Positions 899 to 27,527 of a stretch of DNA of 29,121 nt are shown piece after piece. The notes beneath the pieces are model-generated. The model searched no databases. It was not told the DNA's origin and saw only the letters and a list, made by a program, of their open reading frames with translations. The DNA comes from a virus. A program made the translations under genes and the position numbers. Positions within the stretch are counted from its first letter, which is position 1; the number at the start of each line of letters is the position of its first letter. The stretch is from positions 1 through 29,121 of the IMG/VR virus record IMGVR_UViG_3300043788_000236. One strand, given 5' to 3'.

Positions 899-1521
899 AT
901 GAATTTGGTGTTCTTCACCAGGAAAACCCGGAACCTTTTGTTTATGACATGGAATATGCCAAACAAAGGTATGACGCTCTTCCAGATCGGGGAAGGTTTA
1001 TGGCTTATTATCGTTTAGGGGCTCTTCTTCAACATACAACGATGGACGTTTTGGATATTCTAGACGTGGGTTATGGTAATGGGGCTTTTTTGGATGCCAC
1101 TTGGAATGCCGGTTTAAGAACCTATGGACATGATGTAAGTAATTATCCCCTCGAGGAAATGCATACCTTTTTGGGTCTAGACCAACTTTTAAGCGGAGAA
1201 TGGAAATTTGATATAGTAACTTTTTTTGATTCTTTGGAACATATGTCCTTTCCTTTAAATTTTTTAAGCGCTTTAAAAACAACCTATATCATGATTTCTG
1301 TTCCTTGGTATCATCCAGAAAAAGGAGAAGCTTGGTTTGAAAAGTGGAAACATCGCCGGCCGAATGAACACTTACACCACTTTTCAAAGGAAGCTTTGGA
1401 AAAAATGTTAAATTCCATAGGGTATAAGTTGGAACACCATAGTGATATGGAGGACGCCCTTCGATTAACAGAAGAGTATCAGGTTCCCAATATTTTAACT
1501 TGTATTTTTAAGAAAATATAA
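877..1521 (+). CDS. Class I SAM-dependent methyltransferase
   Basis: The gene encodes 214 residues. Motif I of Rossmann-fold methyltransferases is clear as ILDVGYGNG (residues 61-69). A strand ending in FDIVTFFDSLEHM has the position and form of motif IV in small-molecule or sugar methyltransferases of the Methyltransf_11/23 type. The start is a GTG inside the end of the previous gene, preceded by AAGG about 8 bases upstream. Its stop overlaps the ATG of the next gene (TAATG), so the three genes are probably translated together. Sitting between two glycosyltransferase-like genes, it most plausibly methylates a sugar or the same glycan; this is inferred from context. A DNA or protein methyltransferase is less likely because no DPPY or NPPY-type motif is visible. 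Confidence 0.72.
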   Translation: MDQKYKLDEFGVLHQENPEPFVYDMEYAKQRYDALPDRGRFMAYYRLGALLQHTTMDVLDILDVGYGNGAFLDATWNAGLRTYGHDVSNYPLEEMHTFLGLDQLLSGEWKFDIVTFFDSLEHMSFPLNFLSALKTTYIMISVPWYHPEKGEAWFEKWKHRRPNEHLHHFSKEALEKMLNSIGYKLEHHSDMEDALRLTEEYQVPNILTCIFKKI

Positions 1522-2369
1522 TGGCCCATTATTCCCTCTGTTTTGACGGTGGTCTTGGGGATGTTTTTCGACGTGCCTTTGAGGGTGGTTGGTATAGTGC
1601 TTTGGATTTTTTAAATCCGGAAGACACCGTAGACATTCATATTGTTTCCCATAATCCTTTTGCCCATGAATTTTTTGAATTTCATCCAAAAAGAAATCAG
1701 TTTAATATAAAAACATATCCTTTTAAAATTGTTCAAAAACATGAACAAATAAAAGAGTGGAATAATATTCCTCAGGATAGTTTACTTCCAAAAAGTTCCA
1801 GTCAAATAAACATTTATCCTTCAGCGGTGGATATAATTACAGTTCGGGAAACTATAAAGGAACTTGGTTATTCCCCCTATATAGTTATATCCGCAAATGC
1901 CGGAAGTAATGGAAGAAATATTCCAGTTAATATTTTAAAAGAAATTTGTCGCACAGCCCATAGCCAGGGGGTTCGGGTGGTGGGAGTTGGCCGTTCCTAT
2001 GTTCGGGTTGGAATGAATTCCGACAATAACGAGAATGTTTATGGGTTTGATAATAACGTGGTTGACCTTGTGGATAAATTAACGGTTCAGGGGGTAGCTT
2101 ACCTTATTTCAAGGTCTAAAGCATTGGTAGCTTGTCATTCTTCCGTTTGTTTAATGAATTGGTATATGTTGCGCAAGCCTAACCTTATTTTATTTCCTAA
2201 TGGTTACGCTAAAACGCCGGCCTTTATTGATGTTTATGATCCAAAGGAAATTCCAATGGTAAGTGAAGAAGTTTTTCTTTTTGGAAAATACTTTAAGGAA
2301 ACTATTTTTTCTTTTTTTAGAACTTACAAAAACGAACTTATGACAAGGCTATTAACCGGGGTACAATAG
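1521..2369 (+). CDS. GT9-like glycosyltransferase (second of the cassette)
   Basis: The gene encodes 282 residues. The N-terminus has a GGLGDVFRRAF loop similar to the GLGD loop of the gene at 2-898. The middle has a strand-loop VISANAGSNGRNIP followed by VRVVGVG, the layout of the GT-B C-terminal domain. LISRSKALVACHSSVCLMNW resembles the region where GT9 enzymes bind the nucleotide-sugar ('a...v..dsg..h.A'). The product is probably a soluble cytoplasmic enzyme. Its ATG overlaps the methyltransferase stop. The family is assigned from weak, fold-level motifs. It could be another GT-B enzyme or a non-catalytic relative. The donor and acceptor cannot be read from sequence. Confidence 0.5.
   Translation: MAHYSLCFDGGLGDVFRRAFEGGWYSALDFLNPEDTVDIHIVSHNPFAHEFFEFHPKRNQFNIKTYPFKIVQKHEQIKEWNNIPQDSLLPKSSSQINIYPSAVDIITVRETIKELGYSPYIVISANAGSNGRNIPVNILKEICRTAHSQGVRVVGVGRSYVRVGMNSDNNENVYGFDNNVVDLVDKLTVQGVAYLISRSKALVACHSSVCLMNWYMLRKPNLILFPNGYAKTPAFIDVYDPKEIPMVSEEVFLFGKYFKETIFSFFRTYKNELMTRLLTGVQ
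2340..2367 (+). promoter_or_regulatory. Candidate promoter before the connector genes
   Basis: ATGACA (2340-2345), a 16-base spacer and TACAAT (2362-2367) resemble a sigma70-type -35/-10 pair. It overlaps the last codons of the glycosyltransferase gene, 6 bases before the next ATG, so any transcript from it would be nearly leaderless for the first connector gene. The core GGTACAATAG recurs with small changes at 3177 and 12635. The call rests on sequence only. Confidence 0.35.
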
Positions 2370-2372
2370 GGT

Positions 2373-2735
2373 ATGACCTTTTCTTTGGACTTTCAGGATA
2401 TGTGTACGGCCCAAATTGTGTGGGCTCCCTTGACTGGGCGGGATGAATTTACAAAACCCACCTATGGAACACAAACAACTTATTTCGCCCGTAAGTTTAG
2501 AAAAAATAAACTTATAACGACTAAAGATGGAAAAATTGTTCCCACTACTGCTCAAGTGTGGGTAATTGGTTTACCATCCTCTGCCCAATACCCAAACGGT
2601 CTTCCTCCTCCCCCTATTGATCCTCAGGATTATTTTATGTTTTTAGATGATAACACTGTTCCCGTTATTGCGGGAGTTGATCGTCCGGAAGATGAAACAG
2701 CAGAAGATGCCGTTACGAAAGTGTATCTTCTTTAA
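2373..2735 (+). CDS. Head closure / head-tail connector protein (probable)
   Basis: The gene encodes 120 residues, rich in beta strands and proline, with no transmembrane segment. It contains KDGKIVPTTAQVWVIG followed by a PPPPIDPQDYFMF loop and an acidic C-terminal stretch. Size, composition and position fit a neck protein of the siphovirus head completion set: it lies immediately before an HK97 gp10-like gene and two genes before a tail-terminator-like gene. The start ATG has only a weak GG-rich ribosome site (TAGGGT). The stop overlaps the ATG at 2735 (TAATG). The functional call comes mainly from gene order and is therefore tentative. Confidence 0.5.
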   Translation: MTFSLDFQDMCTAQIVWAPLTGRDEFTKPTYGTQTTYFARKFRKNKLITTKDGKIVPTTAQVWVIGLPSSAQYPNGLPPPPIDPQDYFMFLDDNTVPVIAGVDRPEDETAEDAVTKVYLL

Positions 2736-3169
2736 TGGCCGGGGTTAATTGGTCCTGGCAAGGGTTGGATTCTCTCTTAAGCAAATTAGCTAATTATCCA
2801 GAATTTTTAAAACAGGGATTGGCTTCTGCCTTGTTTGTGGAAGGGCAGGAACTTATAGGCGAGGCTAAACAGGAAGTACCCGTTCGTTATGGGCATTTAA
2901 GGGATTCCGGATTTTCCACTATTCCAGAAGAGGATAATAATGGTGCCCTTGTTGTAACTGCCGGATTTGGTGGGCCTGCTGGTACTGGTAACCAAGAAGG
3001 GGAAACAAATGACGAGGATGTAGGTTACGCTATTTATGTTCACGAAAACTTGGAAGCCCACCACGAAGTTGGAAAAGCAAAATTTTTGGAAGATCCTTTT
3101 AACGCCCGCAAAGAAGGTATCCCGGAACGTCTAGCAGAACGTTCCAAAAATTACGACCCACTTCAATAA
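2735..3169 (+). CDS. HK97 gp10-like neck/tail protein
   Basis: The gene encodes 144 residues. The N-terminal GLDSLLSKLANYPEFLKQGL helix, the EGQELIGEAKQEVPVRYGHLRDS segment and the later YAIYVHE and FLEDPF are the familiar pattern of the HK97 gp10 / lambda gpZ-like family, which joins head and tail. The order is usual: a helix over which the 'akk.vPv.tG.Lr.S' motif sits, then a strand containing 'Ya.yvE.Gt', then 'fl.pa'. It is translationally coupled to the preceding gene. A short linker rich in G, N and E (about residues 85-105) is inserted before the YAIYVHE strand, so this member is a little longer than usual. Confidence 0.75.
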   Translation: MAGVNWSWQGLDSLLSKLANYPEFLKQGLASALFVEGQELIGEAKQEVPVRYGHLRDSGFSTIPEEDNNGALVVTAGFGGPAGTGNQEGETNDEDVGYAIYVHENLEAHHEVGKAKFLEDPFNARKEGIPERLAERSKNYDPLQ

Positions 3170-3175
3170 CCTTTT

Positions 3176-3184
3176 TGGTATAAT
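3176..3184 (+). promoter_or_regulatory. Candidate extended -10 promoter
   Basis: TGGTATAAT gives a perfect -10 hexamer (3179-3184) with the TGn extension, in a 65-base non-coding gap. No good -35 is seen at 16-18 bases, which is normal for extended -10 promoters. It would transcribe the gene at 3235, whose ribosome site GAGGAG lies 6 bases upstream of its ATG. Confidence 0.5.
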
Positions 3185-3234
3185 AAACCAACCCCTAAAC
3201 AACTAAACAGAGGCGACATTTCCGAGGAGACGAA

Positions 3235-3714
3235 ATGCCCCTGGCCCCTGTGAACATTACCACAAGCGGCGGATTTACTATGTTTCATCTTTTTTTAGTT
3301 TTTCTTGGTTCCTTTGCAACTTTTTTAACGGCCTTGGTTCCTTTTCTTCAATGGAGGGATAAAAAAAGAGCGGAAGAAAAAAAAGAACAGCCAGTTTATG
3401 CAACGGAAACTTCCCTTAAAGTATTTCAAAGCGAGATTCGTGGAAATATGGATCTCCATGGAAAAATTGTTAATGCGGCGGCGATTGAAGCAAGTAACGC
3501 CTGTCAAAGGATAGAAGCAACCGCAGAAAAGATTGAGGACCAGTTGGATGCCAATGCAAAGGAACAGAGGGAAACACTGCTTGCTTTTAAGATGGGTGTG
3601 GATACAAGTTTGGGTCAAGTTCATGATAAAGCAAATGAGGCTATAACGAAAGTGGCTACATTAGAAGGCCGTGTAGATACTCTTCAGGAATTGCTACCAA
3701 GGAAAATAGGGTAA
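3235..3714 (+). CDS. Membrane-anchored coiled-coil protein
   Basis: The gene encodes 159 residues. One strong hydrophobic segment lies at about residues 16-37 (MFHLFLVFLGSFATFLTALVPF), then a lysine/arginine/glutamate-rich stop-transfer stretch. From residue 60 to the end the protein is a long charged helix with regular hydrophobic spacing that predicts a coiled coil. The layout is like XhlA-type or other phage single-pass proteins, but no family is recognised. It is preceded by an extended -10 promoter and a strong GAGGAG site, which choose the ATG at 3235; an internal ATG at residue 16 would start right at the membrane segment. It sits between neck and tail-terminator genes, an odd place for a membrane protein. 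A role at the cell envelope or in superinfection is possible but unsupported. Confidence 0.6.
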   Translation: MPLAPVNITTSGGFTMFHLFLVFLGSFATFLTALVPFLQWRDKKRAEEKKEQPVYATETSLKVFQSEIRGNMDLHGKIVNAAAIEASNACQRIEATAEKIEDQLDANAKEQRETLLAFKMGVDTSLGQVHDKANEAITKVATLEGRVDTLQELLPRKIG

Positions 3715-4151
3715 TGCCTTCAACTTATTTACAGGATATTGCGGCATGGTTTACCTTGTTACAAATTGCGGATGCGCCAAATGGTGTCCTTACCGGATGG
3801 GGTTTATCTTTGGGGCAACAACCTAATACACCGGATCAGTGCGTAACTATTTACGAAACAGGGGGAATGCCACCGGATATAAAAAGAACGGGTTCTTTAG
3901 AAAAACAATATGACCGGATAGGTTTACAAGTTCGGGTAAGAGGACCATTACAGCAGGACTACATGACACCACGGAATAAAATCCAGGACGTCTTTAAAGC
4001 TTTACACGAAAACGAACCCCCTCGGTCCCTTACCCAAAAAAGAATAGTAGCTTGTTATGCGGTTAATTCAGGGGCTTTACCAATGGGGTTAGATAAAAAG
4101 GATCGTATGGAGTTTGTTTGGAATTTTAAAATAATTCGGGAACGGGAATAA
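3714..4151 (+). CDS. Tail terminator-like / minor capsid family protein
   Basis: The gene encodes 145 residues. The middle contains QCVTIYETGGMPPD, then YDRIGLQVRVRGPLQQDY, then a helix ending in FKALHEN. This alternation of 'v.i..tgG.p', 'iqv.vRg..y' and 'a...l' matches small phage proteins of the lambda gpU / tail terminator type and the PF12691-like minor capsid family. These form the ring that stops tail tube growth and joins tail to head. Start and stop overlap neighbours (ATG at 3714 over the previous stop, TAATG at the end). Position directly before the tail tube genes supports the assignment. Confidence 0.62.
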   Translation: MPSTYLQDIAAWFTLLQIADAPNGVLTGWGLSLGQQPNTPDQCVTIYETGGMPPDIKRTGSLEKQYDRIGLQVRVRGPLQQDYMTPRNKIQDVFKALHENEPPRSLTQKRIVACYAVNSGALPMGLDKKDRMEFVWNFKIIRERE

Positions 4152-5386
4152 TGGCCCAACGATTTAACCCAATTTATCTTTCTTCCTTTAACCTAACTGG
4201 TTACAACTTTAATAATTTTGTAGCGGGTTTTGTGTGCCAGGATTCTTCCGGAAACTTTTGGGTTACGGATACAAAAAATCCAAATATTTTAAAATTTAAT
4301 TCCCAAGGTGTTTTTGTTTCTTATTTTACTAACAGCGTTTTTAATTCTTCTGAACCGGCATGTATAGCCATTTCTCCATTGACAGGTAATTTATGTGTTA
4401 GCAATGATACTCCTAACATTTACGAATTTTCTTTTTCCGGAACACTTTTAAACACATACATAACAGCCGCCGCTATTGTTAGCGGTTTCTCTTTTGATAA
4501 TTCTGGTTACTGTTTTTTAGGGGATTTGGAACACGGCGTTGTCTATGTTTATACTCCTAATTTTGTTTCTATTCAAAATAGTTTTACTCAAGCGGCCGGG
4601 GTTATTGATGTTTTTATAAGTATTTCTCTTGGGCTTGTTTACATTACAAATGCTTTTTCAAATCAAGTTTTTGTTTATTCAATTAACAATTATGTGTTTA
4701 CATTTTCTTTTATTTTAAAAAATGTTCCAATTTCTTATAGCGCTCCTTTTTCTGCACGTCCTGATTTCCTTGGTTACATATACACGACACCCCAAAGTAA
4801 TAATCATAATATTTATGTTTTTGATTCTTCCGGTAATTTTTTATTGGAAATAAATAATCCTTCTAATTCTTTAAGAGGAATGTTAATTATAGGAAATAAT
4901 TTATATGTAGCCTCTTCCCAAATTACGGTGTTCAGTTTATATACACAAATTATAAACAACCCTCCAGCTCCCAACGTTGGAGAAGCACAAAAAGGGCGTT
5001 CCTTTACGCTGTCTGTAATTGATCCTTCTACAAACGGTTACGATGTAATAGGCGGTTTTTCTTTAACTAGTTTAAAAGGAAATAATAAATTAGCCGATGT
5101 AACGGACAAAGACAGTGAAAGTTGGGAGGAGTTTTTAGCTACTCTTACTTCCGTTTTAATAACAGGCCAAGGAACATTTAAAGGAACTGCTGGGGAAATT
5201 TTAGTGGAAAAATATTTTTGGGTCGGTTCTTCCAATCCTTTTCAAGTTTCATTTGAAAATGGAAGTACCCTAACGGCTGCTTTCATTGTAAAAGATTTTG
5301 AATATTTGGGAAATGTAAATGATTTAAGGAAATACAACGTAACACTTCAATCAAGTTTTAAAATAACTTACGCTTCGGCGCAGTAA
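4151..5386 (+). CDS. Tail tube-like protein with N-terminal beta-propeller
   Basis: The gene encodes 411 residues in two parts. Residues 1 to about 265 hold repeated 40-45 residue units of the NHL / strictosidine-synthase-like type, each with a G-(N/Y)-x-(F/L/I) strand and an I-x-x-(F/Y) strand (for example SGNFWVTDTKNPNILKFNSQ and TGNLCVSNDTPNIYEFSFSG), about six blades. Residues 270 to 411 look like a TP901-1/HK97-type major tail tube domain: GGFSLTSLKGNNKLADVTDKD, SESWEEFLATL, a GTFKGTAGE segment and a long C-terminal strand pair. The next gene is a plain tail tube protein, so this one is probably a decorated minor tube subunit or a receptor-facing variant. The domain split is seen in sequence; the virion location is inference. 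Confidence 0.62.
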   Translation: MAQRFNPIYLSSFNLTGYNFNNFVAGFVCQDSSGNFWVTDTKNPNILKFNSQGVFVSYFTNSVFNSSEPACIAISPLTGNLCVSNDTPNIYEFSFSGTLLNTYITAAAIVSGFSFDNSGYCFLGDLEHGVVYVYTPNFVSIQNSFTQAAGVIDVFISISLGLVYITNAFSNQVFVYSINNYVFTFSFILKNVPISYSAPFSARPDFLGYIYTTPQSNNHNIYVFDSSGNFLLEINNPSNSLRGMLIIGNNLYVASSQITVFSLYTQIINNPPAPNVGEAQKGRSFTLSVIDPSTNGYDVIGGFSLTSLKGNNKLADVTDKDSESWEEFLATLTSVLITGQGTFKGTAGEILVEKYFWVGSSNPFQVSFENGSTLTAAFIVKDFEYLGNVNDLRKYNVTLQSSFKITYASAQ

Positions 5387-5395
5387 AGGAGATTT

Positions 5396-5827
5396 ATGGG
5401 AGCCAGTAATGCAACAAAAACTAAAGGTGATTTGTGGGTTGTAGCCATTAACCCGGGCGGTTATAGTGCAACCCCGAATTGGATAACAATTGTTTCCCAG
5501 TCCACATGCAAATTTTCGTTTAAGAATAAAACGGAAGATGTGACGGGGAAAGAGGATAATGGCTGGGATGCAACAATTCCCGGGAACACAGGTTGGACCC
5601 TGGCCATGGATGGTTTTATTGTTTTGTCGGATACTGGTTATCAAACAATAGAAACCGCTTTGCAACAAACCCAAGCCTGTTATATTCAGGTAACACGGCC
5701 GGATGGAAAGGCTTACCAGGGTAATGCCGTGTTGGCCGGTTTTGATTTGGATTTATCCGTTGGAAAGGTGGCGGCATTTTCCGTTTCCTTTACGGGGGAC
5801 CAAGCATTAACCAGTTTCCCTATTTAA
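5396..5827 (+). CDS. Major tail tube protein (TP901-1-like)
   Basis: The gene encodes 143 residues. STCKFSFKNKTEDVTGKEDNGWDATIPG carries the hallmark 'd.T.k.s.gW.e.l.G' of phage major tail proteins. It is followed by a strand with GWTLAMDGFIVLSD, a helix TIETALQ, and a closing GFDLDLSVGKVAAFSVSFTGDQALT pattern, the usual C-terminal strands of this family. The ribosome site AAAGGAG lies 5 bases before the ATG at 5396. The following chaperone pair and tape measure gene give the standard siphovirus order. The protein probably self-assembles into the tail tube. It shows faint similarity in layout to the C-terminal half of the preceding gene, suggesting a duplication. Confidence 0.78.
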   Translation: MGASNATKTKGDLWVVAINPGGYSATPNWITIVSQSTCKFSFKNKTEDVTGKEDNGWDATIPGNTGWTLAMDGFIVLSDTGYQTIETALQQTQACYIQVTRPDGKAYQGNAVLAGFDLDLSVGKVAAFSVSFTGDQALTSFPI

Positions 5828-5864
5828 TAAAATAGGGGAATAAAAATTTAATTAGGAGGAGTAT

Positions 5865-6251
5865 ATGAGTGCAACTACGATAACGCCGGTTTCTTTGACT
5901 CGGAGTGGGGTCGTTGTAGCCCCGGTTGGTTCCGATGTTAATAACGGAAATCAAATTCCGTTAACGGGTTTTGAGCAAGTGGAAATTATTAACGGGGACA
6001 GTGTGACGCGCACTGTTACTTTTGTTTGTCAATCCAAAAATAGCAGGGGACAAGCAAATCCGAACATAGTGGCACCCGTGGCGGCCGCTACCACTTTGGT
6101 TTTCGGACCTTTTCAAAAAGCGGATTGGGCGGACGCCAATAGTAACTTACAGTTAACTTGGTCGGCGGGAACATCTTCCACGCTAACCACCGTAAGGGCT
6201 TCCAAGAATTTGGTTAGTAACCCCTCCTCGGATACGGAAGGTTCCTTGTAA
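5865..6251 (+). CDS. Small beta-rich virion-type protein
   Basis: The gene encodes 128 residues. It contains LTRSGVVVAPVGSDVNNGNQIPLTGFEQVEIINGDSVTRTVTFVC and later TLVFGPF. This pattern ('t..g......a.d..nGn...n.G...l.v.N.....tvtf') is common in small phage structural or decoration-like proteins, usually about 110 residues. I recognise the pattern, not a named family. It has no signal peptide or membrane segment, and its C-terminus is serine/asparagine-rich. A very strong ribosome site (AGGAGG, 6 bases before the ATG) and its own intergenic spacing suggest high expression. It may be a tail tube decoration or accessory subunit given its place between tube and chaperone genes. Confidence 0.55.
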   Translation: MSATTITPVSLTRSGVVVAPVGSDVNNGNQIPLTGFEQVEIINGDSVTRTVTFVCQSKNSRGQANPNIVAPVAAATTLVFGPFQKADWADANSNLQLTWSAGTSSTLTTVRASKNLVSNPSSDTEGSL

Positions 6252-6286
6252 TAGCTAGTTAGTAAATTTTAAACAGGAGCAAAGAA

Positions 6287-6676
6287 ATGGTAACAGTAAC
6301 ATTGCCGGATAATGAGGATAATTCTAAAAGTAAAGAATATAAACTTCACTTTGGAATCAAGGAACTTGCAATGATTGAGAAGTTCCATGGTTGCAATTTG
6401 AGTACCCTAGCCAGCAAAGAAAGGTTTGGAATTGATAGTTTGATAACTTCCCTTTGGGCTGGAATGACAAGACTTCAACCGGAGTTTTTAGAACCAGAAA
6501 ACCGGGAAGATGTCTTAATGCTTTTGGATTATTATCAAAGTCACGGCGGGGATGTGGCCCTTGTTCGAAAGGCCGTAATGGAAGCCTTGGTGGTTGGTGG
6601 TGCAATGGGAAAAAAGAAGGGGGAAGAGGAACCACCTACCTCTTCCCCGCAAATTTCAGCGCAGGCCAATTCCTAA
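6287..6676 (+). CDS. Tail assembly chaperone, short form (gpG-like)
   Basis: The gene encodes 129 residues. The body is predicted helical (LHFGIKELAMIEKFHG, then DSLITSLWAGMTRL, then a Q/S/H-rich helix), which fits the small tail assembly chaperones that precede tape measure genes. The C-terminal 20 residues after KKKGEEE are low-complexity and are encoded downstream of a -1 frameshift site, so they are the unshifted tail. Ribosome site AGGAG is 7 bases before the ATG. In lambda the equivalent proteins gpG and gpGT are made in a fixed ratio and load onto the tape measure protein during tail assembly. Sequence similarity to gpG itself is not visible; the assignment rests on position and recoding site. 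Confidence 0.75.
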   Translation: MVTVTLPDNEDNSKSKEYKLHFGIKELAMIEKFHGCNLSTLASKERFGIDSLITSLWAGMTRLQPEFLEPENREDVLMLLDYYQSHGGDVALVRKAVMEALVVGGAMGKKKGEEEPPTSSPQISAQANS

Positions 6677-6981
6677 AGGATTGGGAAGAAATTGCAGAAG
6701 AGTATGAAATAAATCTTCCTGAATTAACCATTCCGGAATTTAAAAAGTCCTTGGAAAAGGCTAGAAAAAAAGAAAAGCGGGAAGCCTTACGGTTTGCCGC
6801 TTTAGCTTTTCTTTTAATGAAAGCCTTGGGTGTTAAAAAAATAAAAAAACCACAAGATTTAATTCACTTCTTTTTAACTAGTTTGCCGGAAGACCCAAAC
6901 AAGGACAAAGATCTTTTAACCCAAGCAAAGGCCGCCTTGGAAAGGCATAGGAGAATTCATGGCAGAAGCAACGGGCGATGA
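6287..6981 (+). CDS. Tail assembly chaperone, -1 frameshifted long form (gpGT-like)
   Basis: This is the predicted fusion of about 231 residues: zero frame from 6287 to the slippery site at 6607-6616, then the -1 frame to the stop at 6979-6981. The T part (from about 6613) reads DWEEIAEEYEINLPELTIPEF, then a lysine-rich helix and ALRFAALAFLLMKALGVKKI, and has no ribosome site or start codon near its beginning. It overlaps the tape measure start by 23 bases. The G-T extension is known from lambda and many other siphoviruses, where the T domain recruits the tape measure protein. The unshifted frame stops at 6674-6676, inside the T frame. Confidence 0.8.
6607..6648 (+). promoter_or_regulatory. 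Programmed -1 frameshift signal
   Basis: GGGAAAAAAG (6607-6616) holds two overlapping slippery heptamers, both correctly phased to the zero frame: G GGA AAA and A AAA AAG, the latter being the dnaX type. A perfect 10-bp hairpin follows, GGGGAAGAGG (6620-6629) pairing with CCTCTTCCCC (6639-6648) around a 9-base loop. The spacer is 3 bases from the second heptamer or 6 from the first, close to the usual range. Confidence 0.85.
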
Positions 6982-8428
6982 TACATTTGCACAAGTAATG
7001 GTAAAAATTGGTGCAGATATTTCCGGACTTAAGGATGGACTTTCCCAGGTTGGGTCCATGTTTAAGGACCTTACTTCCTTGATGGGTTTATCCTTGGGTA
7101 TTGGAGGTTTGCTCGAACTTGGTAAAGCCTCCATAGAAGCGGCTTCTGATGCCCAACAAGCGGAAGTAATGTTTGCCGCCGCCTTGGGTAGTATTGGGGT
7201 GAGTTACGTTGAAGTAAGTGGAGAGGCTAACCAGTATTTAGAAAAAATTCAAGAAATAGATGGTTTTCACAAAAGTGAAGCTCAACCGGCTTTAACTAAG
7301 TTAATTCAGATGACGGGTAATTACATTGAATCCTTAAAGCTTTTATCCTTGGCGGCTAATGTGGCCAGGGGTAGCGGTCAAGATCTTATGCAGGCCTCTA
7401 CTATGTTGGGACGTGTGTATGATGGTAATACCACCATGCTAAAAAGATTTGGAATGCAGGTGGATAAATCCACATCCTCTGTGGATGCCCTAGCTATGGT
7501 TCAGAAACGTTTTGCAGGGGACGGGGCGGCTTACATGCGCACATATGCCGGCCAGGTTCAAAACTTTACAAACCAATGGACAACGGCCAAGGAAGTTATA
7601 GGAAAGGTTCTTATTGTTATTTTAAAAATGGCCGAAGACCAGTTTATGATCGAAATGGACGCCTTGAAAATGATTTACTTTTCTTTTTTAAGTTATTATC
7701 AAATGACTGTTAGATGGTTGGAAGAACATATCCCTGGATTAAAAAAAATATTTGGGGACGTAGCTGATGACGCCGGCGTTAAATTTGATGGTGCTTTTGC
7801 GGACATGAAAAAACATTTTCACGATATCCTAAATCCAACTAGTTTCGACTCTCAAACAAAGGCTATTGCCGCTTCCGTAAATGCGAACACAAAAAAAGCT
7901 TCTGATGACTTTGATGCCCTTGGAAAAGTTATAGGGGACATAGCCCAACAAGGAGCCTTGGATTTTGCAAATGATTTTTCTGCTTCCTTTTCTTTATTTG
8001 AAAAAGGAACTATTCAAATAGGTACCGCCTTTAAAAAAATGTTGGATCAAATGGTTCAACAAATTATTAAATCCGGCATTTTAAACTTTATTGGTCTTAT
8101 CTTTGGTGGTACTCCGACAGGTGGTTTTGGAATATTGGGAAATATTTTTGGAGGGGGAAAAGGCGGTGGGGGTGCGGCGGATGTTCCCAAAATGGCAAGC
8201 GGTGGAATAGTAAATTCCCCCACCCTGGCCATGATTGGGGAAGCCGGTCCAGAAGCAGTTATTCCCCTGAACCAACTACAGGGAAACGGGGTGGGTGGGG
8301 GTTCTTCAACTACTAATTACATCACGGTTTCCTTGCCGTCCCTTATAAATGTAATGGACCCTAGTTCTTACAATCAGGCCTTACAGTTTATTGGGAATGG
8401 GTTAAAAGCCAAAGGAATCATTTCTTAA
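6959..8428 (+). CDS. Tape measure protein
   Basis: The gene encodes 489 residues. The start follows the classic beginning of tape measure proteins, a short strand (VMVKIGADISGLKDGLSQVGSMF) and long alanine/lysine-rich helices. The C-terminal end has the usual MASGGIVNSPTLAMIGEAGPEAVIPL signature. Glycine-rich and hydrophobic stretches in the middle and near residues 365-395 are typical. At about 0.15 nm per residue the tail would be near 70 nm, so this is a short siphovirus-type tail. The ATG has a GGAG site 6 bases upstream and overlaps the chaperone T frame by 23 bases. It governs tail length and probably helps DNA entry. Confidence 0.9.
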   Translation: MAEATGDDTFAQVMVKIGADISGLKDGLSQVGSMFKDLTSLMGLSLGIGGLLELGKASIEAASDAQQAEVMFAAALGSIGVSYVEVSGEANQYLEKIQEIDGFHKSEAQPALTKLIQMTGNYIESLKLLSLAANVARGSGQDLMQASTMLGRVYDGNTTMLKRFGMQVDKSTSSVDALAMVQKRFAGDGAAYMRTYAGQVQNFTNQWTTAKEVIGKVLIVILKMAEDQFMIEMDALKMIYFSFLSYYQMTVRWLEEHIPGLKKIFGDVADDAGVKFDGAFADMKKHFHDILNPTSFDSQTKAIAASVNANTKKASDDFDALGKVIGDIAQQGALDFANDFSASFSLFEKGTIQIGTAFKKMLDQMVQQIIKSGILNFIGLIFGGTPTGGFGILGNIFGGGKGGGGAADVPKMASGGIVNSPTLAMIGEAGPEAVIPLNQLQGNGVGGGSSTTNYITVSLPSLINVMDPSSYNQALQFIGNGLKAKGIIS

Positions 8429-8859
8429 TGGCACTTCTTACACAGTCAATTTTAAATATAGATAATCAATTTCAAGTCCAAAAGAATTTTTCTTGGATTC
8501 CTAAGGCTTACAGAACTAACGATATTCTAGTTCCCACCTATTTTGGAAATCTTTATGTAAACGCTCTTTATCGTAAAGAAATGTTCCAACTTCAAATAAA
8601 TAACCTTGGGGAACATTTAACAGAATTATTGGAACAGTTATTTAACCAAACAGGCGTAGGGATATTTCATACCGTTCAGGTTATAACGCCGAAGGTTAAT
8701 CGTATTTGGGATGGGGTTACAACCCCTTCCGGCGGTACCAACACGGACATTAACCGGGTTCGTAATCAAATTTATTTTACGGGTGGTTCCTTTGTAAAAA
8801 CCAGTTACGATGGAAATCCTAATATTTATCAAGTTACGCTAGACTGTCAGGAAACTTAA
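8428..8859 (+). CDS. Tail protein, distal-tail-like position
   Basis: The gene encodes 143 residues. It follows the tape measure gene with a TAATG overlap and is beta-rich (FQVQKNFSWIPKAYRTND, then VPTYFGNLYVNALYRKEMF, ending in IYFTGGSFVKTSYDGNPNIYQVTL). No signal peptide or membrane segment is seen. Genes in this place in siphoviruses encode the distal tail protein or a small tail-tip subunit. This one is shorter than Dit proteins (200-300 residues) and has no motif I can name, so the call is by position only. The next gene starts 2 bases after its stop, consistent with a tail-tip operon. Confidence 0.45.
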   Translation: MALLTQSILNIDNQFQVQKNFSWIPKAYRTNDILVPTYFGNLYVNALYRKEMFQLQINNLGEHLTELLEQLFNQTGVGIFHTVQVITPKVNRIWDGVTTPSGGTNTDINRVRNQIYFTGGSFVKTSYDGNPNIYQVTLDCQET

Positions 8860-8861
8860 AA

Positions 8862-9701
8862 ATGGCCTTGACCGCAGATCAAATTCTTCGTGTTCAAAAC
8901 ACCGTAAAATCCTACAAAGCAGAATTTGCCTGGGGCAATAACCTATGCTTGACATTAAATTCCACAGGAAGCCCCCTGGCCAGTGCAACGGCAGTTGATG
9001 CTTCTTTAAACCCCGCATCCAGTATTATTTCCGGAAGCAAGGTTCATTATAATCCTGTTTTGGATTTAGATAATAATTGGTGGGGTGGATATGGAAACGA
9101 AACTTCTTTAGGTTTTTCAAATATTTCTGGATCTCAAGCAGAAACCCCAAATAATTCAATCATGAATTTTGGTTCCCCCACTAAATTTACTGCCCGGGGT
9201 TGGGTTAATATTGTTTATAATCCTAGTGGAGCGACTTATTCTGTTTTTTCTCAACAAGGTTCAGGAAATTCTTCTTGGATTGTTGGTTATACAACTTCTG
9301 TCGGTGCTAATATATTTGTTATTTTAAATAATACTTTTCTTTTGGTGGGTCTTACTACTCTCAGTGCCGGCATTTGGTATTTTGTGGAAGTTTCTTACGA
9401 TTCTAGTTTAGGTTCAGATAATGTAAAAATTTTTGTAAACGGTGTTTTAGATGTTACTGGTAATTATTCTACTGTAATCTCTAATACTGGTGAAAATTTA
9501 TATATAGGTAATGGGGTATCCACAGTTTATACAATAGAACCGTATGATGGTTATGTTTCCGAGTTTGAATTTTGTTCTAACTTTATTCGTAATACAGTTA
9601 ATTATACTCCTCCAGATCATTTAGTTTCGGATTCACATACTACTACACTTTACTATTGTAATCAATTTCCCGGTCCACCCTTTACGCTTCAGGATTCTTG
9701 A
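8862..9701 (+). CDS. LamG-like tail-tip protein, ending at an in-frame TGA
   Basis: 279 residues precede the TGA. Residues from about 90 to 270 form a laminin-G / concanavalin A-like lectin domain: FTARGWVNIVYNPSG, IWYFVEVSYDSS, VKIFVNGVLDVTG, LYIGNG and YDGYVSEFEFCSNF all match the strand pattern of LamG_3 domains, which bind carbohydrate. At the end, TLYYCNQFPGPPFTLQDS is followed directly by the stop and then PNSLNATLSG in the same frame. LamG-domain proteins typically continue at that point ('DSsgngl.atl.g'). The gene is therefore probably the first part of one protein continuing into the frame at 9741-12626. It starts two bases after the previous gene with no clear ribosome site, suggesting coupling. 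Confidence 0.75.
   Translation: MALTADQILRVQNTVKSYKAEFAWGNNLCLTLNSTGSPLASATAVDASLNPASSIISGSKVHYNPVLDLDNNWWGGYGNETSLGFSNISGSQAETPNNSIMNFGSPTKFTARGWVNIVYNPSGATYSVFSQQGSGNSSWIVGYTTSVGANIFVILNNTFLLVGLTTLSAGIWYFVEVSYDSSLGSDNVKIFVNGVLDVTGNYSTVISNTGENLYIGNGVSTVYTIEPYDGYVSEFEFCSNFIRNTVNYTPPDHLVSDSHTTTLYYCNQFPGPPFTLQDS
9699..9701 (+). other. In-frame TGA, possible read-through or nonsense site
   Basis: The frame from 8862 to 12626 is open except for this one TGA (context TCT TGA CCA). If it is read through the product is 1254 residues. UGA followed by C is the leakiest stop context described in bacteria. The only start codons near the next segment are a TTG at 9741 without a good ribosome site, and the first ATG is about 36 codons later. 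Confidence 0.75.
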
Positions 9702-9740
9702 CCAAACTCCTTAAATGCAACTCTAAGCGGATCTTATACT

Positions 9741-12626
9741 TTGGGTCAAATTTCTTCCCTCCGGGGTTTTGGAGGTACTAATTGGACTCCCAATTCTTTA
9801 ACGATAAATTTAGGTGGAACAATTAGTGTAACGGAAATTTGGTTGTTTATGCATCCTTTTTTACCCACCTGTTCGGCATATGCTATTCAATTTTCCTTGG
9901 ATGGGGTAACTTGGGATACTTTAGAAAATGTAACAAACGCCGATCAAATCCAACTTCAGGATTTTAACATTGGAACAACTTCTGTTGCTTATGTAAAACT
10001 TATTCCAATGAACGCAGGTTCCGATTTCAATGTTCGTTTTGTTCAGCTGGAACTATATAATTTTGTGGATGAAACTTCAAACGTTGTAGATAAAAAAGGT
10101 TCCGGACCGGATATTACTATTACTGCAAAAGAAGATCCTACTCAAAATGCCTCCCCCACACCTTCCCAACTTCAAATAGGTTTAAATAATGTTACTAATC
10201 GATTTTCCAATTCAAATACATCTAGTCCCATTTACGGTACAACTCAAGTGGATGGCCGGGGGTCCGGAGTTAGAAGTAATGTTCCTGTTCGTATAACCGC
10301 TTCCGGGTTAGCCCCGACTGAGGACACGTTTTCCCAAAAATGTTTTTATGGTTTTATTTCCTGCGATGACAATCCAGCCGGGTCCACGGGTATTACTTAT
10401 GATGATTCTACCGGAACAGTTATGTTTACTTGTAAAAGTCTTTATGATCTTTTTAACCAGACCATAGAACCGCCTGTTTATGTGGGTTATTTCTTTTTTC
10501 AAATAGTTCAGGACTTGGCTTGGCGTTGTGGGGTACCCCAACAATTTCTTAATATAGACCCGGTCCTTCAAATGGTACCTTTTGTTACCTTTGATGAAGA
10601 TACAGGAACAGACTGTGTTCAGCAGATTTTGGAAGTAATGCCCTTTGCCCGTTGTTTTGAAACGTTTGATCCTTTGCCTACTTTAAATTTTATCAATTAT
10701 GGTCGTAACAGAATGAACGTGGATTTTAGCCTTTACCTTAGTAACCTTTACGGTTATGCCTTTAGCGGTAATCTTCTTTATTTAATAGGTAATTTAACGG
10801 TAGATGGCGAAAACAACATATATTTGGATGTGTGGGTATGGGACACAACACAACCCCTGGATAAATCTATTAAACAACTTATTAACCAACAAAATTTCGG
10901 AGCTTCCAACGCACCTGTGGACACTGTTTATTTTCCAGGTTGTGCCTTTGTTACTTCCAACGGAAATCTTGTTTTTCAATTTGGATATGTTTGTAATACG
11001 CAAGGGAATGAGCATTATGTTATTTCTGTAAATTTAGAAAGTTTAGCTTGGACAACTAATATTGTCCCTCACGGTGCCGGTACGGGCGGTTTAGCCCCGC
11101 AGGATTATTTTTCCCAAAGTTTTTCTAATCGTTATATATTTATGATTGTTTATTGTGCGGAAACAGGGTTTGCCGATTATAGAATGGTTTCCTACGATGG
11201 TAACACAGGGAATATGTATGATTTGGGAGCCGTTCCTAGTTCCCCAATGATAACATGGATGGGTGGAGACAGTGAATATTATATTCAAACGATTGAGGAT
11301 GTTTTACAAGTGGCTCATTATAATGGAAATATATCAAGTTCCTTGTCCCTTACTACTATAACAGGTTGTACGGGAGCAGATTTTGAACCTGGCAACACTT
11401 TTTATGAACCAACCGGACAAAATCTTTACTGGATAGGTAAAAAACCAGTAGATGATGGTTTTCTTCATTTATATAAAATAAATATTCTGGCCGCTTTTGC
11501 TAGTCCTTCCCTAACTCCTACGGACATAAGTGGACAACTAGTTCCGGAATCCACATATAACATTGTAAATGAAATTTTTACGGATGGAAATTATGTGATT
11601 TATACCTTAAATGTGGGTTCTAGATATGTTCTTAATATTACAAATTCTGGAAATTTACCATTTTTCTTAGGCGATGGAAACCTAACCGTATTGAATGGAA
11701 ATACGGGTTCAACGCCTGGCCTGGCTACACTGGAAACACTTTTTCAAAAATGGGCGTTAATGGAATATACGGATGCCCTGGGGGTAACCCAATCCTTTTT
11801 TCTAAACATTTGTTTTCCAATGAATGAAATGTACGGATTTGTATTGAAACCCTCCAGGCCTTTTAACCCTTCTCCGGAAGTGGCATTTTCCCTCAGCTCT
11901 TTTTTAACAAGTTCTCAAGTTTCAGATGGAAATCCATCCGCTAATCGGGTAACCATAGCCGCTACACCTAATTCCTTAAACACTTCCCGGGTTCATCTTT
12001 GGGATCAACCTACGGATAGGGTTCTTTCCTATCCAGCCGGCCTTATAACTAAGTTATCCATTCCCGTTACTTCTTCAGTAAGGGGACCCGTGGAAGCTAC
12101 TGTTCGCCTGTTTAATTGGACTTCCCTTAATATAGGGGAAAGTCAAGGAGCGATTTCTCAGGATATTACAATTAACGGAACAACTTATCCATGTTATTTT
12201 TGGGGTGAGGGGGATATTATGTATCTCCAATTCGACTGCACTGGTCGCCCCGGCCTTTCTTTTGGAGGGGCTAATATTACAGGCTGTGAAGTATCTACCA
12301 GGGATCAGGCCGAATTGGAACAAGATGAAAGTGATTTAATAAGTCAAGCCCTTTATGGCAGAATTTTTCTTCTGGCCATCACTTCTTCCCTATATAATGA
12401 TCCTTCCTTTTATCAGGATTTATTACTAAACGGTAAATATGCAAAATATTATATCAACTCCATGGAAATGCCCTGGTATCCCATTATTGAACTTTCTGAA
12501 TTAACTACATTTACAAATTTGAACTGTGGTTTTAGCGGTATCCTTTTTGAAGTGGTGGGTTACACCATAACAGGATTTAAAACAACACTTCAACTAAAGC
12601 AATATTATACTCTTTACAATATTTAA
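9741..12626 (+). CDS. Tail hub/tip protein with F5/8-C-like and propeller-like parts
   Basis: 961 residues from the TTG at 9741, but the frame is open from 9702 and the coding sequence probably begins there or upstream. Residues 1-110 resemble an F5/8 type C (discoidin) domain: [30 protein letters not shown] and FVQLELYNF. Residues 115-310 have a tail-hub look ([42 protein letters not shown]). Residues 330-650 contain repeated beta-propeller-like units ([50 protein letters not shown]). The C-terminal 250 residues return to hub-like strands and helices. It likely forms the tip complex that contacts the host receptor. The domain boundaries are estimates from pattern alone. Confidence 0.65.
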
Positions 12627-12682: not shown

Positions 12683-12907
12683 ATGGAACCAGGTTTTGTC
12701 AAGTGGTTTAATTCTCAAAAAGGCTATGGTTTTATTACCTCAGACAAGGATAAAAAGGACTACTTCGCCCATTTTTCCAGTATTAAAGCAGAAGGTTATA
12801 AGAAATTAAACACAGGGGATAAGGTTACGTTTGACATCGGAAACGGACCCAAAGGGCCTCAGGCTAATAACATACAAGTAACGCAACCGGCCGGGTCTAA
12901 TGCTTAA
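12683..12907 (+). CDS. Cold-shock domain protein
   Basis: The gene encodes 74 residues, the usual CspA length. All landmarks are present: FVKWFN (residues 5-10), RNP1 as KGYGFIT (13-19) and RNP2 as YFAHFSSI (27-34, with YFA replacing the common VFV), then the DKVTFD strand. CspA-type proteins bind single-stranded RNA or DNA and melt RNA structure, acting in the cytoplasm. It has its own candidate promoter and an AGGAG site 6 bases before the ATG, and stands between tail-tip and lysis genes. It may act as an RNA chaperone or antiterminator for late transcripts, which is inference. Phage copies of csp genes are known but uncommon. Confidence 0.9.
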
Positions 12908-13396: not shown

Positions 13397-14332
13397 ATGG
13401 AAACAAAGAATAAACCAATGTTTCAAGGATGGGGGCACAAACTCATAATGCTTTGGCTTATGGCCTCTTTTTTCTTATTCATTGGTTTTTTGTTTGCTTT
13501 TGTTCCAAAACCACATATTGAAAAAACAAAAACATACAAAGCATTGGAACAAAGCCTTACTCGACCGGATAAATGGATAAATCTTACTACAGACAGATTA
13601 TTTAATATCCTGGCAAAACGCCATGAACTTTCCTATTGGACGGAAGATGGAAAAAAACACCCTACTAATTGGTCTAAACTAAGAAGAAATATTGTAAACG
13701 CTTATGACGCTTCCGAGTTAAACCCTTCCAGCGGTTCCAGGAAACAAACCACTATTAAACTTTTAGACAATCAATATATAGAAAGCCGGTTTAACCAATA
13801 CGCCTTTCACTTAAATTCTGACGGTTCTTGGGACATTGGTTTAGGTGGGATAAATTCCTGTAATTGGTTTGATAAAGTAGGGGCTCAAATTTGGGAGAAT
13901 TTCTGTATTAAACAGGGTCTTGACCCTAAAAATATTTCCCTTCTTTATGATTCCAGGGTAAACACTTTTTATATGGCCTATCTTATGGAGTTATATGGAA
14001 AAAAGCATTGGCGTTTGTATACAAGAAAGAAGAGTTTAAATAATCACTATGTTTATAAAAACCTGAAAAGCGTTGTACCCCGGGAAACCGGAGGAAATAA
14101 AGGAGGTAGTAATGAAAAATTTTCTGCTGGTATTTCTTTTAGCTTCGCTGGGTTGGGCGCAAACACCTACCCAAAAAATAGTGGCAACGGCTACGCCGGC
14201 CCTGTCCGTGGTTTCGGATGGCATTACCTTAGTGATAGATGGGGGTTATACCTGGGACCAGCATGCCGCCAAGTTCAAATTCGGTACTCCGGAATTCAAA
14301 CAAGCCCGGTTAGAAGTTATTGCCTACGCTGA
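13397..14332 (+). CDS. Lytic transglycosylase-like protein with N-terminal anchor
   Basis: The gene encodes 311 residues. One hydrophobic segment (about 15-36) could anchor it in the inner membrane. The catalytic region resembles SLT/goose-type transglycosylases: LLDNQYIESRFNQYAF with the likely acid Glu129, SDGSWDIGLGGIN, then DPKNISLLYDSRVNTFYMAYLMELYG. Such enzymes cut the MurNAc-GlcNAc bond of peptidoglycan. The last 73 residues (from about 14112) overlap a clearly real secreted-protein gene in another frame and look unlike the domain, so the native end may be near 14070-14110 with a lost stop. There is no good ribosome site at the ATG. Confidence 0.6.
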   Translation: METKNKPMFQGWGHKLIMLWLMASFFLFIGFLFAFVPKPHIEKTKTYKALEQSLTRPDKWINLTTDRLFNILAKRHELSYWTEDGKKHPTNWSKLRRNIVNAYDASELNPSSGSRKQTTIKLLDNQYIESRFNQYAFHLNSDGSWDIGLGGINSCNWFDKVGAQIWENFCIKQGLDPKNISLLYDSRVNTFYMAYLMELYGKKHWRLYTRKKSLNNHYVYKNLKSVVPRETGGNKGGSNEKFSAGISFSFAGLGANTYPKNSGNGYAGPVRGFGWHYLSDRWGLYLGPACRQVQIRYSGIQTSPVRSYCLR

Positions 14333-14693
14333 CGCCGTAGCGGCCGCTCAAGCCGCCAACAAAAAGGGGGATTACGTTACCGCCGAATCCATTTCCCCGG
14401 AATATGTTACAAGGGCCTTTTACGGTCTGTCCGTTCTTCGAACTTTAATGGGAGGAAAACGTAAGGCGGATCGTAGTTGGGGAAGTTATCCAGCAGATGC
14501 AAAAGGCGTTTTGGATTCTTCCAAAGTGGACCCCCTGGCTATCCAAGTAAAATTTAATTATGTTCAGAAGTGGGTTAATGGAGCCCTGGCCAGTGGAAAA
14601 ACAAAAGATAGCCAGGGGAATGACGTAGCCTTGGTTCAGTCCTATTTGGACGCCTATGCCAAGGGATTATTGAAAAATATTTTAAAGCCGTAA
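14112..14693 (+). CDS. Secreted protein of unknown function
   Basis: The gene encodes 193 residues from the ATG at 14112, chosen because AAAGGAGG lies 5 bases upstream; an earlier start at 14073 has no such site. The first 16 residues (MKNFLLVFLLASLGWA) are a clear Sec signal peptide with an A-Q-T cleavage region, so the product is exported to the periplasm or outside. The mature part is alanine/lysine-rich and helical (EFKQARLEVIAYADAVAAAQAANKKGDY). It has no cysteine and no catalytic motif that I recognise. The stop is followed by a terminator. Its position beside the transglycosylase and holin-like genes suggests a lysis or envelope role, which is inference. Confidence 0.72.
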   Translation: MKNFLLVFLLASLGWAQTPTQKIVATATPALSVVSDGITLVIDGGYTWDQHAAKFKFGTPEFKQARLEVIAYADAVAAAQAANKKGDYVTAESISPEYVTRAFYGLSVLRTLMGGKRKADRSWGSYPADAKGVLDSSKVDPLAIQVKFNYVQKWVNGALASGKTKDSQGNDVALVQSYLDAYAKGLLKNILKP

Positions 14694-14746: not shown

Positions 14747-15190
14747 ATGCCTAAACCAGTTGGACTTTTCCAAGACCCGCATTTTATTGGTATTTTAACT
14801 CAACTTGCCGGGGTGGCCGTGTGGGGTTCTTCCCATTTGGCTTTGATTCCTTCACCTGCTCAACCTTATTTTGCTCTCGCAGGTGAGTTGGTGGTTTTAG
14901 TGGGTTCCGTGTTTCATATCAAAGGTTTAATGGACCCAGCCTCTACCCAAACCCCTCCTCCCGTTGTGGCCGATGTAACTGCGGAGGTTACCGGAGTTCA
15001 AAATGTGGTAAGCGCCACGGAGGCCTTGTTACAAGCGCAAAAAACTATCCAAGGTCATATTGACAGTTTAACGGCGGTTCAAGCCACTTTGGCACAGGCT
15101 AGCACGGTTGTAACGGCTAACACGCCTTCCCCCGTGGTGGTTATTCCTCCCGCTGTCACTGTGGTCCCACCTTCGGTGAAACCACAGTGA
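14747..15190 (+). CDS. Holin-like membrane protein
   Basis: The gene encodes 147 residues. Two hydrophobic segments lie in the N-terminal half: about residues 12-32 (FIGILTQLAGVAVWGSSHLAL) and 40-60 (YFALAGELVVLVGSVFHI). A helical region with alternating V/A/Q/T follows, and the C-terminus is proline/valine-rich (VVVIPPAVTVVPPSV). Two-span proteins of this kind next to phage envelope-degrading genes are usually holins, although this one is longer than most class II holins because of its tail. AAGGAG is 8 bases before the ATG. The stop overlaps the GTG of the next gene (GTGA), so the two are coupled. Confidence 0.55.
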   Translation: MPKPVGLFQDPHFIGILTQLAGVAVWGSSHLALIPSPAQPYFALAGELVVLVGSVFHIKGLMDPASTQTPPPVVADVTAEVTGVQNVVSATEALLQAQKTIQGHIDSLTAVQATLAQASTVVTANTPSPVVVIPPAVTVVPPSVKPQ

Positions 15191-16065
15191 GGGCCGTTGT
15201 TTATTTTGGGGGCGGTCCGAAAATAGCTGTTCATGCCGGTTATTCAAAGGGGGCCTTGGCCTCTATAATACCTACAGCAGATCACCTTTATGGCGTGTCC
15301 GCAGGTAGCCTTTGGGCCTTAATTGAGGCTACTATCGGCACGGATGCTGGTATTGCCTTACTGGGCACCATAACCAGCAATGATTCCATATATGCTACCA
15401 AGGATAAGGTGGCCTTGGCGGGGGACTTATTGTTCCGTGCGGGGGATGGTTTCATTCTTGGTTATGCCCCATTATTGGAATTGCTCAAAACAAAAATTCC
15501 TCCCGGAGTAAAAAAACCCGTTACCGTTGGGCGTGTTCAAAACAATACCATGCGTCTTCAACATGTAACCGCTTGGCCGGATGGTACCTTTACAACGGAT
15601 GCTGACGACCTTGGACCTATTACCACTTGGGAAGAGTTTTTATTGGCTGTTCTTTCCTCGTGTTTAACCTACCCCATTGTTGATATGTATGTGGACCCTG
15701 CTGGAAAGTTCTGGCAAGATGGGGGATTCCGGGAAGGTGGTCCCGTGGTTCGGGCTATTCTTGATGGTGCAACCGAACTGCATATTTGTATGACAGGGGA
15801 ATATTCCTCCAACTGCGCTTTTGACAATACTACGGGAGGAGACCCCATTAACTGTTCGACCCGTACCCTGGAGGGTATGGCTAATCAAAATGTTATTGGT
15901 TCCGTAAACGATGCCGTGGAAAACCCAGCCCTTTCCGTGTTTGTTTATAAATGCACACCCCAAGGGTCCGGAACCGTTTTTGATCAGGTGGACATTCAAG
16001 CCAACATCAAAATCGGACAAGCAGTTACGGCCATAGCCGGTAAAGATTTAGTTTTACAGGAGTAA
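15187..16065 (+). CDS. Patatin-like phospholipase
   Basis: The gene encodes 292 residues from a GTG whose last two bases are part of the preceding stop. The three patatin elements are all present: the glycine-rich oxyanion loop GGGPK (residues 8-12), the nucleophile elbow GVSAG with Ser38, and the catalytic dyad DGG with Asp178. Patatin-family enzymes are lipid acyl hydrolases. Here the gene is paired by overlap with a holin-like gene, which suggests attack on host membrane lipids at lysis, or delivery with the virion; both are inference. No signal peptide is visible. Confidence 0.82.
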   Translation: MRAVVYFGGGPKIAVHAGYSKGALASIIPTADHLYGVSAGSLWALIEATIGTDAGIALLGTITSNDSIYATKDKVALAGDLLFRAGDGFILGYAPLLELLKTKIPPGVKKPVTVGRVQNNTMRLQHVTAWPDGTFTTDADDLGPITTWEEFLLAVLSSCLTYPIVDMYVDPAGKFWQDGGFREGGPVVRAILDGATELHICMTGEYSSNCAFDNTTGGDPINCSTRTLEGMANQNVIGSVNDAVENPALSVFVYKCTPQGSGTVFDQVDIQANIKIGQAVTAIAGKDLVLQE

Positions 16066-16783: not shown

Positions 16784-17058
16784 GTTTGAGGATTTTCCGG
16801 AACCATAACATTTCCTACTTTTCTTTTTTGGATAAACTTATTTCTGGTGGCTTCCCGTTTTTGGGCCGCTTTCAAAAGTTCCATTCCCCGTTTATAACCG
16901 TGTTGCCTTATAAATTCCTGAATTTGTCTTTTCTTTTCGTTACGACCAAGGACTATGGGAAGGGTAGGTAGTTTAGAGTCTTTTTCATTGGCTTGATAAA
17001 TATGGTTCACCATACGAATATCCTCTTGTTTATTTTCCCTTTTAATGTCTTTTCCCAT
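16780..17058 (-). CDS. Small basic protein of unknown function
   Basis: The gene encodes 92 residues, highly charged and lysine/arginine-rich (IQEFIRQHGYKRGMELLKAAQKREATRNKFIQKRK), with a helical middle. No cysteine, membrane segment or recognised motif is seen. Its composition would suit nucleic-acid binding. The ATG is embedded in the predicted native stop of the DUF1643 gene (TAATG at 17060-17056) and its stop overlaps the nuclease start. It might assist the adjacent nuclease, which is inference. Confidence 0.6.
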   Translation of the reverse strand: MGKDIKRENKQEDIRMVNHIYQANEKDSKLPTLPIVLGRNEKKRQIQEFIRQHGYKRGMELLKAAQKREATRNKFIQKRKVGNVMVPENPQT

Positions 17059-17153
17059 TATAAAATTATCCTTTCAAGTTTTCGTGTATTGGGTACATAT
17101 AACGGATGCCTTGGGTACCCTGTAGCAGTTATTCCAAGGCAAAAGGTGCTACG
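17058..17153 (-). pseudogene. Displaced C-terminal part of the DUF1643 gene
   Basis: 31 codons in the +1 frame relative to 17526-17149 restore the family's conserved end (GYPRHPLYV). It has no start of its own. The stop TAA shares its last A with the next gene's ATG, as expected for the native gene end in this tightly packed operon. Confidence 0.65.
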
Positions 17154-17526
17154 CCCTTGTCAACATACGAACTTCATTTACCCGCCATTGGGGACCACCA
17201 GCTCCCCAAGCACAAACAACGGTTTTATTAAGACAGTTTTGAAGAATGTGATGGTCGTTGGCTGGGCCTATGTAGGGAGGGGACCAATGGGACTGCGGTA
17301 CGGGCTTGGAAGATCGCCATGCAAAAAGGTTTACAACAACCAGGCCGCCATATTCAAACCGTTGTGAAAATCCAATACAGCGCCGGATGGTGGCATCATC
17401 CTTTTCCGCATCAGCGGTGGAAGGATTTAACATTATCCAAATTAAGTCTGGTTTAGTGTTGTCCCATACCCGGCGAAGCGTGTAGCGATAAATTTTGTTT
17501 GGGGAGATTAGGGCATCCTTTTCCAT
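17149..17526 (-). CDS. DUF1643 protein, C-terminus displaced by a +1 shift
   Basis: 125 residues are in this frame. YRYTLRRVWDN, IWIMLNPSTADAEKDDATIRRCIGF, VVVNLFAWRS and VVCAWG are hallmarks of DUF1643. The frame ends early in a TAG at 17151-17149. The family normally continues with a 'CLG.T..G.PRHPLYV' motif, and exactly that (CLGITATGYPRHPLYV) is present just after, one frame over, ending in a TAA at 17060-17058 that overlaps the next ATG. A single extra base near 17154-17156 explains the shift; corrected, the protein would be about 155 residues. AGGAG lies 9 bases before the ATG. The function of the family is unknown. Confidence 0.75.
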   Translation of the reverse strand: MEKDALISPNKIYRYTLRRVWDNTKPDLIWIMLNPSTADAEKDDATIRRCIGFSQRFEYGGLVVVNLFAWRSSKPVPQSHWSPPYIGPANDHHILQNCLNKTVVCAWGAGGPQWRVNEVRMLTRA

Positions 17527-22615: not shown

Positions 22616-22902
22616 GTCAGGGGCTCCTTACAATTTTGTTTTGCACAGGGTACAGAAACCGGATGTTGTTTACAAACAATAGGCCTTTCTTTGTAATTCA
22701 TACAAAGTTTTGTTTCCTTATTAAAATATTTACAATTAAATATTTTTGAAATTTTCCCTGTAGAAATTAACATATCCACTAATTTTGGATATTCTTCTAT
22801 GGAACCATTTCCTTTTTCTTTTTTTAAAGCTTTAACTTTTATTTCTTCTAAAGTAAAAGGTAATGTAAAATTTTCACAACATTCTCCAATACAACCAGCC
22901 AT
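22561..22902 (-). CDS. YkgJ-like cysteine-cluster protein
   Basis: The gene encodes 113 residues. The pattern C-x3-CC (Cys4, Cys8, Cys9) then C57, C67, RPIVCKQHP (Cys77) fits the YkgJ family, in which the cysteines bind an iron-sulfur cluster or a zinc ion. Cysteines 86, 91 and 97 are additional. It starts at the TAATG overlap with the clamp stop. The stretch past residue 95 overlaps the QueE gene in another frame. Its neighbour QueE needs an Fe-S cluster, so a supportive role is possible but not shown. Confidence 0.72.
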   Translation of the reverse strand: MAGCIGECCENFTLPFTLEEIKVKALKKEKGNGSIEEYPKLVDMLISTGKISKIFNCKYFNKETKLCMNYKERPIVCKQHPVSVPCAKQNCKEPLTCSAKTPNSLQTRETVQP

Positions 22903-24040: not shown

Positions 24041-24051
24041 TTCATTTCTCC

Positions 24052-27458: not shown

Positions 27459-27527
27459 AGTATAAGCTTCCGCTTTTACCCCCGCAGTTTTTGTATAGAT
27501 AGTTTCCCCCTGTTTATTGTTTTTTAG

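Follow-up and report, generated by a model that had tools for sequence, protein, structure and literature searches.

The window analysed here is the whole 29,121-base virus record of an uncultured phage, with a GC content of 41%. On its plus strand, the ORF reading places a frame of 1255 codons at 8862-12626, running from ATG 8862 to TAA 12624-12626, whose sole internal stop is the TGA at 9699-9701 (codon 280). The sequence-only reading had described this frame as open except for one TGA, and we likewise found no other internal stop; the remainder of the 3.7-kb gene is intact. The frame length given there also holds, but its figure of 1254 residues includes the TGA as if it were an amino acid. 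The peptide flanking the stop, LQDS-stop-PNSLNATLSG, is identical to the one reported earlier. Because an open frame of 974 codons at 41% GC cannot be the product of chance, coding resumes in the same frame after the TGA and continues to 12626. The features discussed below are as follows.

8862..9701, plus strand: first 279 aa of the interrupted tail protein, up to TGA 9699-9701 (ORF reading)
9099..9611, plus strand: LamG/pentraxin-like lectin domain, residues about 80-250 (AF2, Foldseek, PF13385, tblastn)
9546..9737, plus strand: LamG exit/linker motif DGYVSEF...YTPP...TLYYC...FTLQDS-stop-PNSLNATLSG, interrupted by the stop (aligned with cyanophage S-RIM32, DSL-LC04 and others)
9699..9701, plus strand: in-frame TGA, codon 280 (ORF reading)
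9702..12626, plus strand: downstream part, 974 codons, same frame (ORF reading)
9741..9743, plus strand: first possible downstream start, TTG, lacking a convincing ribosome site (anti-SD pairing energy)
9792..10016, plus strand: F5/8 type C (galactose-binding-like) domain, matched core residues 311-385 (PF00754)
10110..10244, plus strand: tail-hub N-terminal domain motif, residues 417-461, DITITAKED... (hub profile, tblastn to Dubu)
17058-17526, minus strand: DUF1643 gene with an apparent frameshift (profile search, frames joined)

Several other genes of the window deserve mention. The adjacent genes at 4151-5386 and 5396-5827 both encode major tail proteins of PHROG 1407, and the first is longer at its N-terminus by about 270 residues, which perhaps form a beta-propeller and could decorate the tail tube. 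At 6287-6981, an ORF (6287-6676) that carries a GGGAAAAAAG stretch close to its end is overlapped by a frame that stops at TGA 6979-6981; this is likely a tail assembly chaperone pair of the gpG/gpGT type. A small cold-shock-like protein, assigned by eye only, is encoded at 12683-12907 directly after the tail protein, and a patatin-like phospholipase gene (15187-16065; PF01734, E 3e-9) lies downstream of the tail genes. On the minus strand, 21923-28172 holds a 7-deazaguanine set comprising a radical-SAM QueE-like gene, a QueD-like gene, QueC, FolE fused to a phosphoribosyltransferase-like N-terminus and, at 24052, a queuine tRNA-ribosyltransferase-like gene (PHROG 887, E 3e-52). From its gene content, this set suggests that the phage DNA is modified.

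The interrupted gene comes after the tape-measure gene (6959-8428, with PHROG tape-measure matches) and a 143-aa gene (8428-8859). An AlphaFold model built from a 38-sequence alignment shows a LamG jelly roll at residues 80-250, with a pLDDT of 73-97 for the block, and its matches in the PDB by Foldseek are pentraxins, laminin LG and PAPP-A. The same region matches phage LamG domains by tblastn; both the jelly-roll fold and the LamG exit motif of LamG-domain phage tail proteins are thus present, and the Pfam profile PF13385 stays below its cut-off (E 0.0022). Beyond the stop, PF00754 matches an F5/8C region with an E of 7e-6 and, for a sub-fragment, 8e-7, which is above the cut-off. Further on, a profile built from seven Streptomyces and Thermobifida phage hub proteins detects a hub motif with an i-Evalue of 2e-7 in a 3-sequence search, the match being partial (positions 30-73 of 92). 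By tblastn, the hub segment is 39% identical to Streptomyces phage Dubu. In the model of residues 1-623, the LamG domain is confident, F5/8C has a pLDDT of about 50 and most of the hub part falls below 45; the F5/8C segment modelled alone reaches 32.

Dubu gp16 and its relatives, which are hub or minor tail proteins, share with this protein the hub motif LNN..GRYSPRN..SPLYG and a position just past the tape-measure region. However, Dubu-type proteins start with the hub domain, whereas here about 400 residues containing LamG and F5/8C come first, and one small gene separates the tape measure and the hub, which in the Dubu type lie side by side. The name "tail-tip protein" given earlier is a fair one. 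In terms of predicted domains, the protein is a LamG plus F5/8C adhesin on a Dubu-like hub, kinds that are already known. A single tail-tip or hub protein would consist, in order, of an N-terminal segment, the LamG lectin, a linker, F5/8C, the hub domain and a long C-terminal part.

The stop lies within the linker that follows the LamG domain. This linker, TPP...TxLLxC...DxSxN...T..G, recurs in cyanophages, in phage DSL-LC04 and in many IMG/VR contigs. In the structural proteins of cyanophages (S-RIM32, Syn1, ACG-2014h) and in DSL-LC04, as here, a LamG core is followed by the linker; in those proteins no stop breaks the linker and a further LamG usually comes after it, whereas here F5/8C comes next and the usual Ser column is occupied by a stop. 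The motif had earlier been described as continuous across the stop, and our alignment bears this out: on the 3' side, the conserved N (D+4), T (D+9) and G (D+12) are all kept, and this stretch ranks in the top 1.7% of the 3406 11-mers of the window. The residues after the stop bring no net gain in the score of a motif HMM run with and without the read-through tail. The length of the upstream chain bears on the same point. In 52 of the 56 copies in which a protein naturally ends with LamG, the last residue lies 6-12 residues past TPP; here, the chain extends 28 residues beyond the LamG TPP, into the linker. Moreover, because the F5/8C match begins at profile position 35, which corresponds to residue 311, the missing N-terminus of this domain, as judged from the match geometry, should occupy about residues 277-310, so that the domain should begin right at the stop.

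Could a natural split nevertheless have produced two genes, one for a LamG protein that is secreted or part of the virion and one for a hub protein re-initiated at TTG 9741 or a later codon? The hub domain lies entirely downstream of the stop, as such a split would have it, and the Streptomyces phage hubs begin right at this domain. Gene coupling is common in the operon, and the codon-usage score of the 39 nt at 9702-9740 is neutral (-0.06), a value as low as that being seen in 3% of true in-frame segments. However, the next in-frame ATG, GTG or TTG after the stop is TTG 9741 (codon 294), where anti-SD pairing amounts to -3.3 kcal/mol, the 25th percentile of random positions in the window. The median for the genes of the window is -5.95, and its two TTG-started genes reach -8.5 and -11.0. 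No good SD was found by anti-SD energy at 9741, 9843, 9849 or 10065. Both earlier statements about this codon, that it has no good ribosome site and that starting there would remove the beginning of the F5/8-like domain, thus agree with our measurements, since the conserved linker anchors and the F5/8C N-terminus sit between the stop and TTG 9741. The upstream chain also stops partway through the linker and not where a LamG protein normally ends, which fits poorly with a natural split, a reading that we consider unlikely. Taken together, the linker motif on both sides of the stop, the overlong LamG chain, the start of F5/8C at the stop and the lack of a convincing restart SD lead us to conclude that the two sides probably once formed one polypeptide.

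Why, then, is the stop there? We favour the view, to which we assign a probability of roughly 0.64, that the TGA is a premature stop arising from a base error in the contig or from a private mutation, and not a programmed signal; this weight, like those behind our wording for the other three readings, is a judgement and was not computed. On this view, a sense codon of the exit linker would have become TGA, either because the metagenomic contig carries a wrong base at this point or because the strain recently acquired a nonsense mutation of its own. In the first case, the phage would simply make the full protein; in the second, the genome would be defective or reliant on basal leakage at UGA. 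Weighing against this view are the flat motif-HMM score after the stop, the neutral codon usage of 9702-9740 and the intactness of the rest of the gene. Comparison of homologues at codon 280, proposed in the sequence-only reading, was feasible at the level of the motif, where the stop column (D+2) is a sense residue, Ser, in 91 of 118 distinct phage motif strings. Queries with the part after the stop, the LamG part, the hub segment and the polymerase found no relative of the whole protein in viral contigs, and none was found among phages (by tblastn) or genome contigs. No relative matched the exact DNA pattern across the stop. Among the 74 virus records reached via the LamG and polymerase loci, plus Dubu, only Dubu matched, and none of these searches returned a relative sharing the stop codon. 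We infer that the stop is not fixed among the phages of this population and that the functional product is the long one.

A second broken gene in the same contig lends weight to the two options of this kind, nonsense mutation and read error, that had been raised before. On the minus strand, the DUF1643 gene at 17149-17526 follows its profile only as far as position 112 of 134, and the C-terminal remainder is encoded in the next frame. When both frames are joined, the match extends to 134 of 134 positions (E 4e-33 to 1e-38) and its score grows from 114.7 to 132.5 bits, pointing to an apparent one-base frameshift near 17155. Judging from the coordinates, a TAA closes the second frame and overlaps the ATG of the following gene at 17058, a type of coupling that occurs elsewhere in the same contig. 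Given two disrupted genes in 29 kb, base errors or decay are likelier than a special signal in one of them. Because an indel and a substitution-type stop are different classes of change, the DUF1643 break is suggestive, and no more, of a base error or private mutation at TGA 9699. As a separate observation, ORF 13397-14332 overruns the next gene (14112-14693, in another frame, with its ATG 14112 behind AAGGAGG) by 220 nt, possibly through a lost stop or a frameshift.

A programmed or tolerated read-through of the UGA has also to be considered. Most ribosomes would stop after LamG, and a few would insert Trp or Cys and proceed to a long, hub-containing protein. Such a site would show one in-frame stop followed by a long stretch of open frame, and here a single UGA is followed by 974 open codons. 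The RNA phage Q-beta obtains short and long forms of a virion protein, coat and A1, by UGA read-through. Q-beta shares the in-frame UGA with this locus but is a model only, since here we see no sign of conservation, of a product or of a stimulatory context. A stimulatory RNA structure is not required at every read-through site. In E. coli reporters, the premature-stop signal at one site ranged over 0.7-6% depending on the identity of the stop, with TGA the highest and thus the most error-prone, and with Trp as the favoured insertion (PMC11126739). UGA-C belongs to the weak prfB stop signal; misreading by E. coli tRNA-Trp is noted with +4A, and the quoted +4C effect comes from yeast (PMC5289835). 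Leakage at UGA is thus a real phenomenon and makes read-through conceivable in principle, but UGA-C, described earlier as leaky, is only moderately so. Tail modules are known to recode for fixed short/long ratios, as in SPP1 gp17.1/gp17.1* and lambda gpG/gpGT (PMC6316719, PMC5009743), and a likely G/GT frameshift occurs in this contig. However, the SPP1 and lambda cases are frameshifts that are conserved or shown at the protein level, whereas here we have an in-frame stop lacking either kind of support.

The RNA around the stop gives little encouragement to a programmed event. Folds around and after it were no better than those of shuffled sequences (z -0.30, -0.25, 0.15 and 0.58, the first three being the downstream folds), and an imperfect inverted repeat (9698-9706/9741-9749, with a 34-nt loop) gives no significant fold. 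No stimulatory 3' structure or element was found; a search of the window yielded no tRNA, and hence no suppressor tRNA, and an Rfam search of the window returned no element. In addition, the stop occupies a motif column at which relatives carry a sense residue. The whole hub domain is encoded after the stop, so that a short form would be a lectin that lacks its anchor and has no evident place in the virion. The option of programmed read-through raised in the sequence-only reading is thus unsupported, with no fold, tRNA, Rfam element or relative sharing the stop behind it, and we regard read-through, programmed or tolerated, as quite improbable. Still more doubtful is the specific proposal that, by UGA read-through in the linker after LamG, a single gene of a tailed DNA phage yields many free LamG lectins together with a few long adhesins anchored by the hub. 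As a regulatory feature, the stop is probably not real.

That UGA is a sense codon in this phage, through code 4 or as selenocysteine, is a hardly credible reading that we reject: there is one in-frame UGA, as it would need, but under code 4 many in-frame TGA codons and no gene ending in TGA would be expected, whereas TGA ends about a dozen other ORFs of the window, several of which overlap the next gene tightly; no tRNA, SECIS-like hairpin near the UGA (by fold and Rfam search) or Rfam match was found, and the stop column in relatives is mostly Ser, not Cys. Because other genes end in TGA with ordinary overlaps, the code is standard; the structural genes at 877-12626 otherwise stop at TAA or TAG, except for the presumed -1 frame product ending at 6981.

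If the stop were programmed, it would represent an in-frame read-through switch in a tailed-phage adhesin, within a module whose cited recoding cases are frameshifts. More likely, under the favoured view of a base error or private mutation, the case illustrates how a single base of a metagenomic phage contig can break up a large receptor-binding protein, so that it is annotated as two genes and its domain order is hidden.
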